Source: Geobacillus stearothermophilus ATCC 12980
Lineage (GTDB): Bacteria; Bacillota; Bacilli; Bacillales; Anoxybacillaceae
Assembly: GCF_030369615.1 (NCBI RefSeq)
Contig: NZ_CP128494.1
Location: 344,001-408,000 of the forward strand
Length of the DNA stretch: 64,000 nucleotides
Direction of reading: 5' to 3'
Part shown: positions 2,064 to 57,717 of the stretch, piece after piece
How positions within the stretch are numbered: position 1 is the first letter of the stretch
Layout: every line of letters begins with the position of its first letter
Notes under the pieces: generated by a model
The model's input: only the letters and a program-made list of their open reading frames with translations
Database searches by the model: none
What the model was told of the DNA's origin: nothing
Made by a program: the position numbers and the translations under genes

Positions 2064-3247
2064 TTCGAATTGCTTACGTCAGCACGTATCCGCCGCGGCG
2101 GTGCGGGCTGGCGACGTTTACGGAACATTTGCGGCAAAGTATTGACGGCGTCCGCGGACCGTCCGATGGCGACCGCATCATCGTGTTGTACAACGAAAGC
2201 GACGGCGATGACGCCTATCGCCACAACCCGGCGTATTGGCCGCTCCCGGCGCAAAACCGCGCGGCGTATGCCGAAATGGCGAAACGGGTGAATGAGAGCG
2301 ACATCGATGTTGTCGTCCTGCAGCATGAATTTGGCATTTTCGGCGGCGAGGCAGGCGAATACATTCTCGATTTCATCGCGGCGCTCGAAAAGCCGCTCGT
2401 GACGACGTTCCATACGGTGTTTGCCGAACCGCCGCTGCCGTACCGCCCGATTCAAGAAAAAATCGCGGCGGCAAGCGACGCCATCATCGTCATGAACCGG
2501 CAGGCGATCCCGTATTTGGTCAAAGCGTTTGGCTTGCCGGAAGAAAAAATTGTCTACATTCCGCACGGTGCTCCAGGCCCAAGCAGCGAAAATCGCGATT
2601 CGCTTCGCCGACGCCTCGGATTCAGCGGCCGCAAAGTGATGTTGACGTTCGGGCTTCTAAGCCGCGGCAAAGGAATCGAGTCGGTGCTCGCCGCATTGCC
2701 GGGCGTCGTGCGCAAGGTGCCGGAAGCGCTGTATGTCATCGCCGGACAGACACATCCGGAAGTGAAAAAACGGGAGGGCGAGGCGTACCGCGATGAACTG
2801 AAAGCGTTGATTCATCGGCTTGGACTCGACGGCCATGTCCGCATGGAGGACCGGTATTTCAGCGAAGAAGAGCTGATTGATTATTTGACGGCGTGCGATT
2901 TGTATGTCACCCCGTACCCGGGCATTCAGCAAATTACAAGCGGCACGCTTGCCTATGCGGTCGGCGTCGGCCGTCCGGTCGTTTCGACGCCGTATGAGCA
3001 TGCGCGCGATTTGTTGCGGGGCTGCGAGGAGCTACTGTTGCCGTATGGCGATACCGCCCGATGGGAAGAGCGGCTTGGGCAGCTGTTGGCCGATGAGGCG
3101 GCGTTAAAACGCTGGGAAGAAACCGTGCGCCAAATTGGGGCGAACACGCATTGGCCGCGCGTCGGCGAACAGCATGTCGCCTTATTTGAGCGCGTGTGCG
3201 CCGCAAAACGCGGGGAGGTGAAGGCGGTTGGCTTCGTCAGTCATTAA
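2060..3247 (+). CDS. GT-B fold glycosyltransferase, family 4-like
   Basis: The 395-residue protein has a two-domain GT-B layout. The N-terminal acceptor half carries STYPPRRCGLATFTEHL (about 8-24). The C-terminal donor half carries TFGLLSRGKGIESV (about 194-207) and GTLAYAVGVGRPVVS (about 295-309). These are typical of retaining GT4 enzymes that use nucleotide sugars. ATG 2060 overlaps the preceding stop codon, so the pyrophosphorylase and transferase are translationally coupled. Its last codons overlap the next gene by 20 nt. No signal peptide or membrane segment is evident, so it likely works at the cytoplasmic face. The donor may be the sugar nucleotide made by its neighbour; the acceptor is unknown. 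Confidence 0.85.
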   Translation: MIRIAYVSTYPPRRCGLATFTEHLRQSIDGVRGPSDGDRIIVLYNESDGDDAYRHNPAYWPLPAQNRAAYAEMAKRVNESDIDVVVLQHEFGIFGGEAGEYILDFIAALEKPLVTTFHTVFAEPPLPYRPIQEKIAAASDAIIVMNRQAIPYLVKAFGLPEEKIVYIPHGAPGPSSENRDSLRRRLGFSGRKVMLTFGLLSRGKGIESVLAALPGVVRKVPEALYVIAGQTHPEVKKREGEAYRDELKALIHRLGLDGHVRMEDRYFSEEELIDYLTACDLYVTPYPGIQQITSGTLAYAVGVGRPVVSTPYEHARDLLRGCEELLLPYGDTARWEERLGQLLADEAALKRWEETVRQIGANTHWPRVGEQHVALFERVCAAKRGEVKAVGFVSH

Positions 3248-8122: not shown

Positions 8123-8154
8123 AAAAAAAGTCAGTCATCATGGTTATACGCTCA

Positions 8155-8253
8155 TCTGCTAGGGGAGTCCGGGAGCCGGGCTGAGAAAAGAACGCGATGA
8201 AGTTCTTTGACCCTTTGAACCTGATCTGGGTCATGCCAGCGTAGGGAAGCAGG
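8155..8253 (+). promoter_or_regulatory. TPP riboswitch (THI box)
   Basis: The conserved THI-box elements appear in order: GGGCTGAGA (8178-8186), ACCCTTTGAACCTGATCTGG (8210-8229) and the ATGCCAGCGTAGGGAAGCA segment (8233-8251), closed by CTGCT/AGCAG. Thiamine pyrophosphate binding should favour the terminator at 8306 and turn off thiC. Confidence 0.97.
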
Positions 8254-8305
8254 CAGCGGGAACAGATGGACGCACAGGCTGTTCATTTGGCCTTTTTGCC
8301 TTGAT

Positions 8306-38053: not shown

Positions 38054-38069
38054 GAAGAACGAGGGACGC

Positions 38070-38172
38070 CTTATCTTCCAAAATGGATCCCATTTTGCTG
38101 GAATTAGCACCTTGCCAAACGCGGCAGGTTGCCGGAGTTCATCGGGCCAGTCCCTCCCCCGCTCTTGATAAG
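38070..38172 (-). promoter_or_regulatory. SAM riboswitch (S-box) of the cysH operon
   Basis: The minus strand shows the S-box elements in order: CTTATCAAGAG, GGAGGGACTGGCCCGATGA, ACTCCGGCAACC, GGTGCTAATTCCAGCA and the closing GATAAG. High SAM should favour the following terminator and stop sulfate assimilation. Confidence 0.97.
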
Positions 38173-38301
38173 CGTATGTAATTTATATTGATTAAATTTT
38201 AACACAATTGGCGCTAATGTCAATCCTAGTTTTTCGATAGGAATTTTTTTATATACATAGGCAGCTTCGCGATGCTTCCATCCGGTGACGGAAGGAGAGG
38301 A

Positions 38302-53239: not shown

Positions 53240-53301
53240 ATGTTCGCCCGCATCGCCATAAAACGGCGTTCCGGACGAAGAAGGCATTTTTTTATAAAGT
53301 T

Positions 53302-53483
53302 ATTGTATAATTGAAACAACTTTTGTATAGTAAGTATAGGATAAACATAAAGGACAGCATGTCGGGAGCCCTTCAAAAAACTTACGCCAGTGTAAGTTCG
53401 TTGAAGGGAAACCGACCGGTGTCTGTTGCACAGCGGGAGATCTTCAAACAATCGCCTCACGATTGGTTGAAGGTAAACCGGCT
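53302..53483 (+). promoter_or_regulatory. dabBA leader with tandem internal-loop hairpins (candidate riboswitch)
   Basis: After likely promoter elements (TATAAT at about 53305 and TTGAAA at 53312), two units share one design. Unit 1 (53361-53416): stem GTCGG/CCGAC, internal loop GAG/AAA, stem CCCTTCAA/TTGAAGGG, apical stem ACTTAC/GTAAGT. Unit 2 (53432-53483): stem AGCGG/CCGGCT, the same GAG/AAA loop, stem ATCTTCAA/TTGAAGGT, apical stem CAATCG/CGATTG. Outer and apical stems differ in sequence but keep pairing, while the loop is constant. The 3' side of unit 2 is also the 5' arm of the terminator, so the two folds exclude each other. I know no named family that fits. Confidence 0.7.
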
Positions 53484-53557
53484 ATGGGCAATCTATAGGC
53501 AATGGTGCGGCCTTTTTGGTCGCGTTGCCTGATTGACATAGCCGGTTTTTTCTTTTT
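53476..53557 (+). terminator. Regulated terminator in dabBA leader
   Basis: AACCGGCTATG (53476-53486) pairs with CATAGCCGGTT (53537-53547) and is followed by TTTTTCTTTTTT. Inner pairing GGCAA/TTGCC and GCGGCC/GGTCGC extends the hairpin. It overlaps the last stem of the upstream tandem motif. Confidence 0.85.
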
Positions 53558-53597
53558 TCTCCCGAACGAAGACAAAGGACGAGGGGAGGAGAATGTG

Positions 53598-55100
53598 ATG
53601 GCAGCACAATGGTTCATATGGGGATGGCTCGCCGCAGTGGCCATCGTTTTCATCAGCGCAGCCGCATGGCTGCATCCGCGCATGCCGGAGCGGTATGTGC
53701 ATGTGCACGTCTGGCTGTTGCTTCTTCCGGGAGCGGCGGCTGCCGCCGGATGGATCGGCGCCGGCAACGCAGAGGCCGGGCCGTGGCGGTTTGATGCGGT
53801 CAGTTGGTTGGTGGCCGTCTATATTTCACTTCTCAGTTGGGTGATTCAACGGTTTGCCGTTCGCTATTTGCATGGCGACCGCGCTTACCGGCGCTATTTT
53901 TCCTTGTTGACGTGGACGGTGTCGGCCGCTTCTCTGACATGGGCAAGCGGCGACATGCGCCTCGTTGCCGTCTGCTGGGGGCTTCCATTGATGGGCCTTG
54001 TGGCGTTAACGGCATTGAAAAAAGAATGGAGGCCGGCGCAGTTTGTCGCCCGGCAAATGGCGGTCGTGTTCAGCCTGAGTTGGCTGGCCGTCGTCATCGC
54101 TGCCGTCTGGCTCGGAACGGCGGCCGGCGAATGGCAGCTTGCTTCTGCGCTGTCGGCGGAGCGCCTTGCCCGCCTAGACGCCTGGGAGAGGGCGGTGATG
54201 AACGGACTGCTTATTTTGGCCGCCATTATCCCGGCTGGACAATGGCCGTTCCATCGCTGGCTGATGGAATCGGCGGTGACGCCGACGCCGGTGTCGGCGG
54301 TGATGCATGCGGGGCTCGTCAATGCCGGCGGGCTGTTGCTTTGGCGCTTTTCCCCGCTCTTTAGCGGGACGGGGGCGCATATCGCATTGTTTGTGATCTC
54401 CTTTTGCTCGATTTTGATTGGTATGGGCATTAGTTTGGTGCAGGCGGACTATAAACGCCAGCTGGTCGCGTCCACGATGGCGCAAATGGGAGTTATGCTT
54501 GTGCAATGCGCCCTCGGCGCCTACGGGGCGGCGGTTGTGCATTTGGTGCTGCACGGGCTGTTTAAAGCGACGCTTTTTCTGCAGTCCGGTTCGGTTGTTC
54601 CGAGGATCGGCCGGCCGGGATTCCAACGAGGAAGCGGGTCATGGCAGGGAGGTCTTCTCCTTGGCGTGCTGCTTGGGGTGTCTTTTTGGTTCGCTTCCCC
54701 GAATGAACCGGCCCGCCTGCTGAGCGCACTTTTGCTTGGGGCCTCGGCGGCGGTCGCTTGGGGACGGCTAGCCGATTTCCGCGAAGGCCGCTGGATGGGC
54801 CTGGCGGCGGTGGCTGTGTTGGCGTTTGGTTCGGAAACGGTGCGCCATCAGTTTTTGACGCTGCTCGGCCAGGGGGAAGCGACGGTTTTTGTGCCGCCTG
54901 CCGCGTTTGAATGGACAGTAGGCGTCTTGTTTGCGATGGCGGCATTGACCGCTGCCTGGCTGGCAAACCGGCGCACATCGGCGCTTGCCGTTCGGGTGTA
55001 TATGCATCTCGTTCATCTCGGGGAGCCGCGCCCAGCGGCTATGGAGGCGCATCCCCGTTATTTGGCATCCTATCTGAAGGAGGGAATGGCTCATGAGTAA
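53598..55100 (+). CDS. dabB: DabB, NuoL-like membrane subunit of inorganic-carbon pump
   Basis: This 500-residue polytopic protein belongs to the proton-conducting NuoL/MrpA family and, with DabA, forms the DAB energy-coupled CO2/bicarbonate uptake complex. About thirteen hydrophobic helices can be seen. The family's conserved loop PAGQWPFHRWLMESAVTPTPVS (first about 214-232) and the HLVLHGLFKATLFLQSG segment (about 314-330) with the membrane His/Lys are present. ATG 53598 has GGGGAGGAGAATGTG upstream. It overlaps dabA by 8 nt, and its expression passes through the tandem-motif leader. Confidence 0.9.
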   Translation: MAAQWFIWGWLAAVAIVFISAAAWLHPRMPERYVHVHVWLLLLPGAAAAAGWIGAGNAEAGPWRFDAVSWLVAVYISLLSWVIQRFAVRYLHGDRAYRRYFSLLTWTVSAASLTWASGDMRLVAVCWGLPLMGLVALTALKKEWRPAQFVARQMAVVFSLSWLAVVIAAVWLGTAAGEWQLASALSAERLARLDAWERAVMNGLLILAAIIPAGQWPFHRWLMESAVTPTPVSAVMHAGLVNAGGLLLWRFSPLFSGTGAHIALFVISFCSILIGMGISLVQADYKRQLVASTMAQMGVMLVQCALGAYGAAVVHLVLHGLFKATLFLQSGSVVPRIGRPGFQRGSGSWQGGLLLGVLLGVSFWFASPNEPARLLSALLLGASAAVAWGRLADFREGRWMGLAAVAVLAFGSETVRHQFLTLLGQGEATVFVPPAAFEWTVGVLFAMAALTAAWLANRRTSALAVRVYMHLVHLGEPRPAAMEAHPRYLASYLKEGMAHE

Positions 55101-57717
55101 AAGTGCAATGCCGCTTGAACGGCTAACGGGGGAATCGAAGCCCACCGGCGCAGAAGCCCGCCCGCTTGCTATGCTTGTCAGCGAAGCGGCAAAGGCGGTT
55201 GCGCCGCTTTGGCCGATTTCCGCCTTTATCGCCCGCCATCCGTGGATGGGGCTTGAAGAGCAGACGTTTTCCGACGCAGCCGACCGCCTGCAGCAGGCGC
55301 ATGGAATTGATTTGTATCCGCCGATGGCGGTTTTCCATGCGGCGATGGCAAAAGGGGAGATTGACCTTGTATTCGTCGAGCGGCGGCTGCAGCGTTGGCT
55401 TGACAACAAGCCGCTCCCGGTGCGGCGCCAAGAAGCAGAGCGAACGTGCCGCGCCCTCCTTTGGAATGAGACGGTGCCCAACGAGGCGCTTCGTCTGCCG
55501 GAACTGGCGGAGCTGGCGCATGCGGCGGCATGGCGTCCGGCGGCTGTTCGGACGGCGGGCGCCGCGTTGCACGGCGTAAGCCAACGCCTTGACCAACAAA
55601 CCGTCAAATGGTGCAAACTGTTTTATGGTTCGAACACGGCGCCATGGGCGCTTCCACATCGTGAGCTGGGGTTTTACGGAGCATGGCGCCGGCTCATCGC
55701 CGCCGACCCGGCGCTCTCGAAAGAGGAACGGAAGCGGCTTGCCGATTGGCCGCACGATGGGGAAGAGGCGCTGCGTCAAGCGTTGATGAAGCTTGGCGTA
55801 CAGGAGGAAGAGACCGCCGCTTACTTGGAGGCGCATTTGTTGGCGTTGCCCGGCTGGGCTGGCATGGTTGTATGGCAGTCGCGCCGGACGGGCGACGAAT
55901 TGCGGGGATTGATTGACTATTTGGCGGTCCGTCTGTCGCTTGAATGGACGCTTGTGGCGCCATATTTGCCGCTTGAACGGGAGGATCATGCGGACATCGG
56001 CGCTGCTCTTTCACTGTTGGCCGCTTGGCTGCATTGGGGAGGGATGACGCTGGAAGACTGGCGGAACCTGTCCGGCAAAGAGCAGCGCGCCCGGTTGGCG
56101 TTTATCGATCGGTTTTGGCGAATTGACCGGTGTCATCTTTGGCTTGAAGCGTGGGAAGATACGTATGAAGCGAAATTGAAAGAAGTGGTATTGGCGCATC
56201 AGCCGATGGATGAGACGAAGAAGGCGGCAGCGCAGCTATTGTTTTGCATCGACGTCCGTTCCGAGCCGTTCCGCCGCCATTTGGAAGCGGCCGGACCGTT
56301 TGAAACGTATGGCTGCGCCGGCTTTTTCGGCTTGCCGATTCAAACGCGCGCACTTGACAGCGATGACGCTCACCCGTCATGCCCGGCGATCGTCGCGCCG
56401 CAGCATGAAATCAACGAAACCGCCGCTTTGGAAGCGGCGCGTCCGTACCGTCGCCGGCGCGATGCATTCCGCTTTGTCGGCCAGACGTTTAAAAAGATCA
56501 AACAGCATATGTTGGCCGGCTTATTGCTTCCGGAAATGAGCGGACCATGGCTCGGCCTTCATACCTTCGCCCGCAGCGCCGCGCCGGCTTGGGCTGGCCG
56601 GGTCGTCCGCCAGGCGGAAGCGGCAGCCGAACATAAGCCGAAGACGGACTTGTCGCTCCACCGCCATGGAAAGGATGAATCGTCTGGACTGCCGATCGGC
56701 TTTACAACCGAGGAACAAGTGCAATACGTGAAGCAGCTGCTCGTCAACATTGGCTTGACGTCTTCGTTCGCTCCGCTTGTGGTTGTTTGCGGCCATGAAA
56801 GCGAGACGGCCAACAACCCGTACGCTTCGGCGCTCGATTGCGGGGCGTGCGGTGGTGCGGCCGGGGCGTTCAACGCCCGCGTATTCGCCGCGTTGGCCAA
56901 CTTGCCGGAAGTGCGCGCTGGACTGGCGGCTGAAGGGATCAACATTCCGGATGAAACGGTGTTTGTCGCTGCGGAACATATTACGACCGTCGATGAAGTC
57001 CGCTGGCTTGATATGCCGCCGTTGTCCGCAGCGGCTGAGGCGTCGTTTCGACAGCTGAAGCAGGCGCTTGGCGAAGCGAGCCGCCGTGCGAACGCTGAGC
57101 GGATGGCAAAGCTCCCCCATGTCGGACAGACGCCGCGCGATCCGGTGGCGGAAGCGCAACGGCGCGCCATTGATTGGAGCGAGATCCGTCCAGAATGGGG
57201 ATTGGCCCGGAACGCTGCGTTCTTGATCGGCCGCCGCAAGTTGACAAAAGGAAAGGACTTAGACGGCCGGGTGTTTTTGCATAGCTACGATTGGCGCGAA
57301 GATCCGACCGGTGAGGCGCTCGCCGGCATTATCGCCGGGCCGGCGACCGTCGGACAATGGATTAACTTGCAATATTACGCTTCAACAGTCGCACCGCACT
57401 ACTACGGGAGCGGCGATAAAACGACCCAGACGGTGACCGGCGGCATCGGCGTCATGCAAGGGAACGGGAGCGACTTGTTAGCCGGCTTTCCATGGCAGTC
57501 GGTCGCCGCGTCCGATCGCGAACTGTTTCATGCTCCTCTTCGGTTGCTTGTCATCATCGAAGCGCCGTCCTATTATATCGAGCAGCTGCTCGACAGAAAT
57601 GAAGAGTTTCGTCGCAAAGTGCAAAACGGTTGGCTCCGTCTCGCCTCGATTGACCCAGACAGCGGGGCGTGGGTGAACTGGGAGGCAGACCGTCTTGCAT
57701 CAAGGCAGAAGCGCTAA
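55093..57717 (+). CDS. dabA: DabA, carbonic-anhydrase-like subunit (DUF2309)
   Basis: This 874-residue protein (UPF0753/DUF2309) couples with DabB to hydrate CO2 in one direction. The beta-carbonic-anhydrase-like zinc site is visible: Cys and Asp in LLFCIDVRSEPFRRHLE (about 382-398), and His and Cys in VVCGHESETANNPYASALDC followed by GACGG (about 562-586). ATG 55093 overlaps the dabB end, giving translational coupling. Length matches full DabA proteins. It is peripheral rather than membrane-spanning. Confidence 0.95.
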   Translation: MSKSAMPLERLTGESKPTGAEARPLAMLVSEAAKAVAPLWPISAFIARHPWMGLEEQTFSDAADRLQQAHGIDLYPPMAVFHAAMAKGEIDLVFVERRLQRWLDNKPLPVRRQEAERTCRALLWNETVPNEALRLPELAELAHAAAWRPAAVRTAGAALHGVSQRLDQQTVKWCKLFYGSNTAPWALPHRELGFYGAWRRLIAADPALSKEERKRLADWPHDGEEALRQALMKLGVQEEETAAYLEAHLLALPGWAGMVVWQSRRTGDELRGLIDYLAVRLSLEWTLVAPYLPLEREDHADIGAALSLLAAWLHWGGMTLEDWRNLSGKEQRARLAFIDRFWRIDRCHLWLEAWEDTYEAKLKEVVLAHQPMDETKKAAAQLLFCIDVRSEPFRRHLEAAGPFETYGCAGFFGLPIQTRALDSDDAHPSCPAIVAPQHEINETAALEAARPYRRRRDAFRFVGQTFKKIKQHMLAGLLLPEMSGPWLGLHTFARSAAPAWAGRVVRQAEAAAEHKPKTDLSLHRHGKDESSGLPIGFTTEEQVQYVKQLLVNIGLTSSFAPLVVVCGHESETANNPYASALDCGACGGAAGAFNARVFAALANLPEVRAGLAAEGINIPDETVFVAAEHITTVDEVRWLDMPPLSAAAEASFRQLKQALGEASRRANAERMAKLPHVGQTPRDPVAEAQRRAIDWSEIRPEWGLARNAAFLIGRRKLTKGKDLDGRVFLHSYDWREDPTGEALAGIIAGPATVGQWINLQYYASTVAPHYYGSGDKTTQTVTGGIGVMQGNGSDLLAGFPWQSVAASDRELFHAPLRLLVIIEAPSYYIEQLLDRNEEFRRKVQNGWLRLASIDPDSGAWVNWEADRLASRQKR

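Follow-up and report, generated by a model that had tools for sequence, protein, structure and literature searches.

How non-photosynthetic bacteria sense scarce CO2 or bicarbonate and switch on uptake is, to our knowledge, a largely open question, and a leader RNA of Geobacillus stearothermophilus ATCC 12980 poses it in a form that can be followed through genomes: what does the structured stretch between mpsC and the inorganic carbon uptake genes dabBA do, which genes carry it elsewhere, and which factor might it answer to? The stretch of DNA analysed, called the window here, is 64,000 nucleotides long (positions 344,001 to 408,000 of contig NZ_CP128494.1), and window coordinates are counted from its first letter.

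All features of the locus lie on the forward strand. The gene mpsC (DUF2294, PF10057; 52871 to 53239; Pfam E 9.7e-40) encodes a 122-aa protein that we propose as the trans-acting partner of the hairpins described below; in a profile search its product was the sole PF10057 match of the source genome, and its score of 135.5 bits against a curated cut-off of 23 places it in the MpsC/DUF2294 family. Downstream lie dabB (53598 to 55100), encoding a NuoL-like subunit (Proton_antipo_M by Pfam; NCBIfam NF006373; start codon picked by eye), and dabA (55093 to 57717; PF10070, Pfam E 4.2e-263), its partner in inorganic carbon uptake. The leader of about 350 nt from mpsC to dabBA holds two hairpins and then a long terminator that starts within the second; over 53290 to 53600 its folding z-score is -8.76, and none of 100 shuffles folded as well.

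Hairpin unit 1 (53361 to 53416; covariance model score 66.3 bits) consists of a five-pair outer stem, a GAG/AAA loop, an eight-pair stem, a 2x2 mismatch and an apical stem, and it stands outside the terminator. Unit 2 (53432 to 53482; 63 bits), the putative antiterminator, has a CGG/CCG clamp, a GAG/AAA loop, a CTTCAA/TTGAAG stem, a mismatch and an apical stem. Folding energies are -26.8 kcal/mol for unit 1 (folded as 53362 to 53417) and -20.9 kcal/mol for unit 2, both with the GAG/AAA loop in 3x3 form. A preliminary description, made from the letters alone, had reported two units 71 nt apart with a common architecture; their starts at 53361 and 53432 agree with that spacing, and folding reproduces the loop, the helix around CTTCAA/TTGAAG and the apical stem in both, which also have a GG/CC base and a mismatch. 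It had also read the 3' strand of unit 2 as the 5' arm of a terminator, and this too is borne out by the competition fold: the strand AAACCGG belongs to both structures. The intrinsic terminator (53475 to 53556) pairs an outer arm AAACCGGCUAUG with CAUAGCCGGUUU, followed by a U-run.

This overlap sets two folds against each other. Over 53432 to 53552, the minimum free energy is -59.0 kcal/mol with the complete terminator and -52.6 kcal/mol with the unit-2 clamp enforced (a gap of 6.4 kcal/mol), and with the clamp formed the terminator stem ends short of the U-run. In transcripts cut before the terminator 3' arm, at 70 and 90 nt, the clamped hairpin is the best fold; by computation, then, it would prevail until that arm is transcribed, and full-length RNA alone would prefer the terminator, with only the short clamp competing. 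Because the terminator is the more stable fold, termination is the expected equilibrium outcome for the RNA by itself, and the clamp must be held by something. We propose that a factor would bind the conserved purine loops during transcription and keep the clamp shut, and that the shut clamp would keep the terminator stem off the U-run, letting RNA polymerase read into the uptake genes. The ON-switch logic suggested at the outset, with unit 2 opposing termination, agrees with the competing folds and is repeated at almost every site examined: the hairpin 3' strand falls within a terminator arm of at least 8 pairs, located before a T-run, at 97 of 102 sites, compared with 17 of 306 control positions chosen at random in the same loci.

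The motif is also present in the leaders of relatives. In our samples, dabA is carried by 18 of 150 genomes of the order and by 23 of 41 genomes of the family, and the hairpin was found in all 37 dabBA leaders of the two samples, namely the window's own and 36 others; for the latter, the stretch upstream of dabA was scored by pattern or, where the hairpin had diverged (L024, L028 to L030 and L041), by covariance model. Two covariance models, R1 built from 33 hairpins and R2 from 105, were scanned against genomes. At E <= 0.01, R1 matched exactly 23 of the 41 family genomes, those with dabA, and later scans with R1 and R2 placed the hairpin before sbtA in the dabA-less family genomes G122, G149, G162, G153 and G154. 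At E <= 0.001, R1 matched 85 of the 397 genomes in the order sample, spread over 50 of its 135 genera, and R2 matched 39 of 348 class genomes and 6 of 199 phylum genomes; given that both models miss diverged members, these tallies are lower bounds, and some of the matches may be due to chance. The six phylum genomes include the window's own, one that was already known (G422), and two with MpsC adjacent (L219 and L221), the GC-rich L221 carrying two tandem units together with MpsC and dabB; the remaining two, L222 and L223, look like chance matches. Apart from this distant case, tandem units are found in Geobacillus and several of its kin, and many other loci have a single unit.

Beyond the reach of the models, similar layouts were recognised in more diverged leaders. 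Staphylococcaceae leaders L226 to L232 have a similar hairpin layout built on another helix, e.g. CAAUUAAA/UUUGGUUG (judged by eye, with three folded), and leader L011 of the same family scored just 22.8 bits with R1, its genome having no R2 match at E <= 1. Among 28 sampled genomes, 8 encode a close DabB, and the hairpin was seen by eye in 7 of those 8; the exception is the Staphylococcus simiae-like L233, where inspection by eye found a terminator before dabB and no recognisable hairpin. In another family, a diverged leader that we call type B lies between mpsC and sbtA (L151, L152, L155, L160, L209 and L211), its GG...CC layout kept by eye and its sequences different. Leaders such as L255, L260 and L262 share the GG...CC layout, and there GAG and AGA loops flank a helix that has eight pairs but a different sequence. 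Taken as a whole, the element looks like a previously undescribed family of RNA antiterminators distributed across many Bacillota. A contig labelled Vibrio hannami (L013) has a leader near-identical to that of the Bacillus licheniformis group and is probably contamination.

Covariation, first noticed between the two units of a single molecule, is strong in both alignments examined. In alignment A4, comprising 103 distinct hairpins, 95.1% of cells pair, two-sided changes occur at 14 of 15 pairs, and the covariation score is 0.471, compared with 0.181 after shuffling and no more than 0.101 when the structure is slid, although A4 was fitted to the R1 structure and its counts lean towards that structure. 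A MAFFT alignment (A1) has a two-sided change at 9 of 19 pairs and a score of 0.296 versus 0.151. Unpaired purines are nearly invariant by A4 column (G8 in 103 of 103, A7 in 99, A92 in 102, A93 in 101, A21 in 98 and G82 in 101), and the apical region varies in length and sequence between loci; the consensus layout is a GG-NAG-8 bp-A ... G-8 bp-AAR-CC hairpin. Loops and spacing are kept and helix sequence is not, a pattern that fits a hairpin recognised by way of its internal loops. Several traits that the preliminary description took from the window alone had to be narrowed for the family. The outer stem pairs in the window and is kept at other loci only as the GG/CC clamp, a longer outer stem being typical of the first unit in tandem leaders; the loop described as constant is GAG/AAA in the window units and NAG/AAR across the family; and the eight-pair stem retains its pairing, with CUUCAA/UUGAAG exchanged for other pairing sequences in distant members.

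The same data address whether the element acts as RNA at all. CTTCAA...TTGAAG is also a palindrome in DNA, as a DNA operator or a repeat element might be, but arm spacing changes with the apical stem, covarying changes preserve the helix in different sequences, and the feature constantly found beside the element is a terminator overlapping it; we give a DNA-level explanation next to no weight.

What the element controls was approached through the first downstream gene at 102 sites (60 from the R1 order scan, 33 from the R2 class scan, and 9 others), with gene identities Pfam-checked on examples. This gene is sbtA at 50 sites, dabB at 39, a DUF6671 gene at 4, isocitrate dehydrogenase at 4, and none or another gene at 5, proportions that are biased in that the sites were picked to add contexts beyond dabBA; dabBA leaders L014 to L049 were scanned apart from them. 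SbtA (Sbt_1, PF05982) and DabA/DabB have no common Pfam family, yet both are bicarbonate importers. The inorganic-carbon link that had been drawn from dabBA is strengthened because an unrelated transporter has the same element, and, judged from gene content, the targets of the element are an inorganic-carbon regulon.

Sbt_1 was matched at E < 1e-50 in 80 of 397 order genomes, seven genomes with weaker matches being left out of the 80. A model match is present in 61 of these SbtA genomes: 44 from the R1 order scan (anywhere in the genome, and not always at sbtA), 7 from later scans, and 10 of 18 additional sbtA leaders. The 19 others were inspected by eye, and comprise 5 with the type-B leader, 6 with another diverged hairpin of similar layout, 3 with a hairpin lacking terminator overlap, and 5 in which no hairpin was recognised (two of them viewed beside mpsC only). 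At L263, L264 and L268, the stretch from mpsC to a distant sbtA contains a GG-AAG...AAG-CC hairpin and a separate downstream terminator, such that the overlap seems lost or different there.

Less frequent gene contexts were also recorded. NADP-isocitrate dehydrogenase, a CO2-releasing enzyme within the regulon, follows the element at L105, L106, L111 and L142, with two matches at L105. DUF6671 genes follow it at L088, L098, L101 and L133, and a broken DUF6671 copy is found at L187 (one of the five sites counted as none or other), which suggests that DUF6671 is linked to inorganic carbon. A second type of SbtA, with the element upstream, is followed in L087 by a 109-aa protein (2900 to 3226) matching P-II (PF00543), and a similar gene is found in L132; the 109-aa protein resembles SbtB, and the gene order is that of SbtA-SbtB pairs. 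A protein of approximately 163 aa is encoded after many sbtA genes (e.g. L118:1803-2291 and L096:1887-2375); two of these proteins were tested and gave no Pfam match. In L185 and L186, mpsC is accompanied by an element and a terminator of its own and then by an unrelated gene, and dabBA lies divergently with a second element.

The factor that would hold the clamp may be MpsC (DUF2294), which would act when CO2 or bicarbonate is scarce; its gene frequently lies immediately ahead of the hairpin or else further along the operon. MpsC directly precedes the hairpin at 58 of the 102 sites, ending within 100 nt and mostly within 30 nt of it; at further dabBA loci it lies 4 to 6 kb downstream, after dabA, and mpsC was found upstream in the same stretch for all 18 of the additional sbtA leaders. 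Of the 85 order genomes that R1 matched, 84 contain PF10057, versus 205 of the 312 others (Fisher p 1.8e-12, kinship ignored), the sole matched genome without it being G233, whose match looks false, and it is present in all 80 SbtA genomes; in both cases the lists were matched by hand, and co-occurrence with the element is confounded by kinship and shared operons. Moreover, PF10057 also takes in paralogs of about 40% identity for which no carbon neighbour was seen, and bare presence is thus a weak test. Stronger evidence comes from MpsC accompanying two unrelated transporters, from its glcT-like position, and from the type-B clade. In the glcT-RAT-ptsG system, the arrangement is comparable, with the glcT gene located before its RAT. 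Among 75 proteins compared, the six MpsC encoded next to the type-B leader group as a single clade (support 0.55), and support rises to 0.91 with L218, which has an intermediate leader, and the lone L210 added; this tracking of RNA subtype by MpsC clade is co-divergence, which plain descent could also produce. MpsC also occurs without a recognised element, abutting sbtA in L150 and standing alone in L154, L210 and L213. Its predicted fold is of high confidence (pLDDT 92.1), and comparison of the model with solved structures gave no convincing RNA-binding match and nothing informative.

The element, its regulon and the antiterminator logic are well supported by sequence, and the identity of the factor is where explanations diverge. 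In one, no protein is involved: bicarbonate, CO2-dependent pH, Na+ or another small molecule would bind the purine loops directly and stabilise the clamp, with MpsC merely a co-operonic part of the uptake system. Such a riboswitch would suit the occurrence of one RNA architecture before two unrelated bicarbonate transporters and isocitrate dehydrogenase, the competing terminator in the leader folds (as in transcriptional riboswitches), and the normal growth of S. aureus without mpsC given in the passages of PMC6689103 consulted. Conversely, the conserved core, a handful of purines within the two internal loops of a single hairpin, is very small for an aptamer, and a direct riboswitch does not call for an MpsC that accompanies all but one of the matched genomes, abuts the hairpin at more than half of the sites, and has a clade tracking RNA subtype; we consider it unlikely, if worth keeping in view, and lean towards a protein-bound antiterminator. 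That protein might still be another trans-acting factor, with MpsC travelling along for other reasons, for example as a transporter modulator. The lack of a recognised RNA-binding fold in MpsC, the location of its MpsC-like paralogs away from carbon genes, and the S. aureus mpsC results (PMC6689103, in part) would all agree with this, but none of the other genes examined tracks the element, and MpsC accompanies two types of transporter that share no Pfam family, which leaves a different protein an improbable candidate.

We therefore return to MpsC, which as RNA-binding partner of the hairpin is, in our view, the best explanation and somewhat better than an even bet. A similar, slightly favourable expectation attaches to the proposal that the hairpin is an RNA antiterminator of the inorganic-carbon regulon held by MpsC. 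More tentatively, and with rather less than even confidence, MpsC/DUF2294 may represent a new class of antiterminator protein, binding RNA and responding to CO2/bicarbonate; across Bacillota it would act on a new hairpin family to control DabAB, SbtA and, in certain genomes, also isocitrate dehydrogenase. Until now MpsC/DUF2294 has gone by the name of a transport subunit, of a system that translocates Na+ or carries bicarbonate; with its high conservation and a function yet to be settled, it becomes a candidate sensor. An element placed before two unrelated bicarbonate importers allows the regulon to be defined by sequence, and a mutable RNA target of 50 nt makes carbon-status sensing directly testable in Bacillus and Geobacillus.

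Among known systems, RAT elements are the targets of the BglG/LicT/SacY/GlcT antiterminators and each form one hairpin that is closed by GG...CC at its base, carries internal loops of purines and shares its 3' strand with a terminator; the regulator gene is often just upstream and a transporter gene downstream. The present element is alike in all of these respects, including gene order. It differs in its loops, where eight pairs separate a symmetric 3x3 loop (NAG/AAR) from an A/G mismatch, in its neighbour, which is MpsC (PF10057) rather than a CAT/PRD protein, and in a regulon of inorganic carbon rather than sugars; a Pfam search of the adjacent protein found no CAT RNA-binding domain, PF10057 being its only match. 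ANTAR antiterminators (EutV/NasR) act on tandem hairpins of which the second overlaps a terminator, with conserved positions in the apical loops of both. Geobacillus-type leaders share the tandem arrangement and the overlap, whereas conservation here is in the internal loops, neither length nor sequence is constant in the apical loops, only one hairpin is seen at many loci, and the protein encoded next to the element is MpsC. The metabolite and ion riboswitches in Rfam 15 are comparable in leader position and in opposing a structured RNA to a terminator. No Rfam 15 family reached its gathering score in the window leader, which accords with the initial impression that no riboswitch of this form is known, and 12 further loci gave only tRNAs. 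Two weak Rfam matches (E up to 10) lie within dabB and are not credible. Of the three outcomes that the preliminary description had named as refuting (a known Rfam class, leaders of relatives lacking the motif, and no covariation), none was observed. Elsewhere in the window, Rfam matched a TPP riboswitch at 8151 to 8264 (+) and a SAM riboswitch at 38068 to 38174 (-).

The portion of the open-licence PMC literature covered yielded no description of the element and no paper joining DabA, DabB and riboswitches; titles and opening lines of abstracts showed no RNA work on MpsC/DUF2294, no title among the papers listed on bicarbonate and riboswitches dealt with the element, a cyanobacterial paper on SbtA and a survey were unrelated, and the parts of PMC11394868 consulted make no mention of a riboswitch. 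The closest physiological data concern S. aureus MpsABC, which in the available sections of PMC6689103 is likewise a DabB/DabA-type bicarbonate uptake system with an associated MpsC. There, an mpsC deletion mutant grew normally and mpsAB without mpsC complemented an E. coli carbonic-anhydrase mutant; were the element present in S. aureus, both results would speak against MpsC being required. No phenotype was seen for mpsC in that system, and here a regulator is proposed. According to the same sections, 5% CO2 lowered mpsA mRNA 1.7- to 2.5-fold, with significance in 1 of 3 strains, which fits the expected direction. The absence of a growth defect and the fall in mpsA would also be explained if polarity were reversed, with MpsC or another factor preventing the hairpin from clamping when carbon is plentiful; set against this, the conserved bases are in the loops of the very hairpin that opposes termination, and the window terminator is already the more stable fold without any factor, and we regard a pro-terminator role as highly improbable. 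Finally, PMC6689103, in the part seen, states that mpsC is not collocated outside staphylococci; this is contradicted by many Bacillota loci in which mpsC adjoins dabBA or sbtA.
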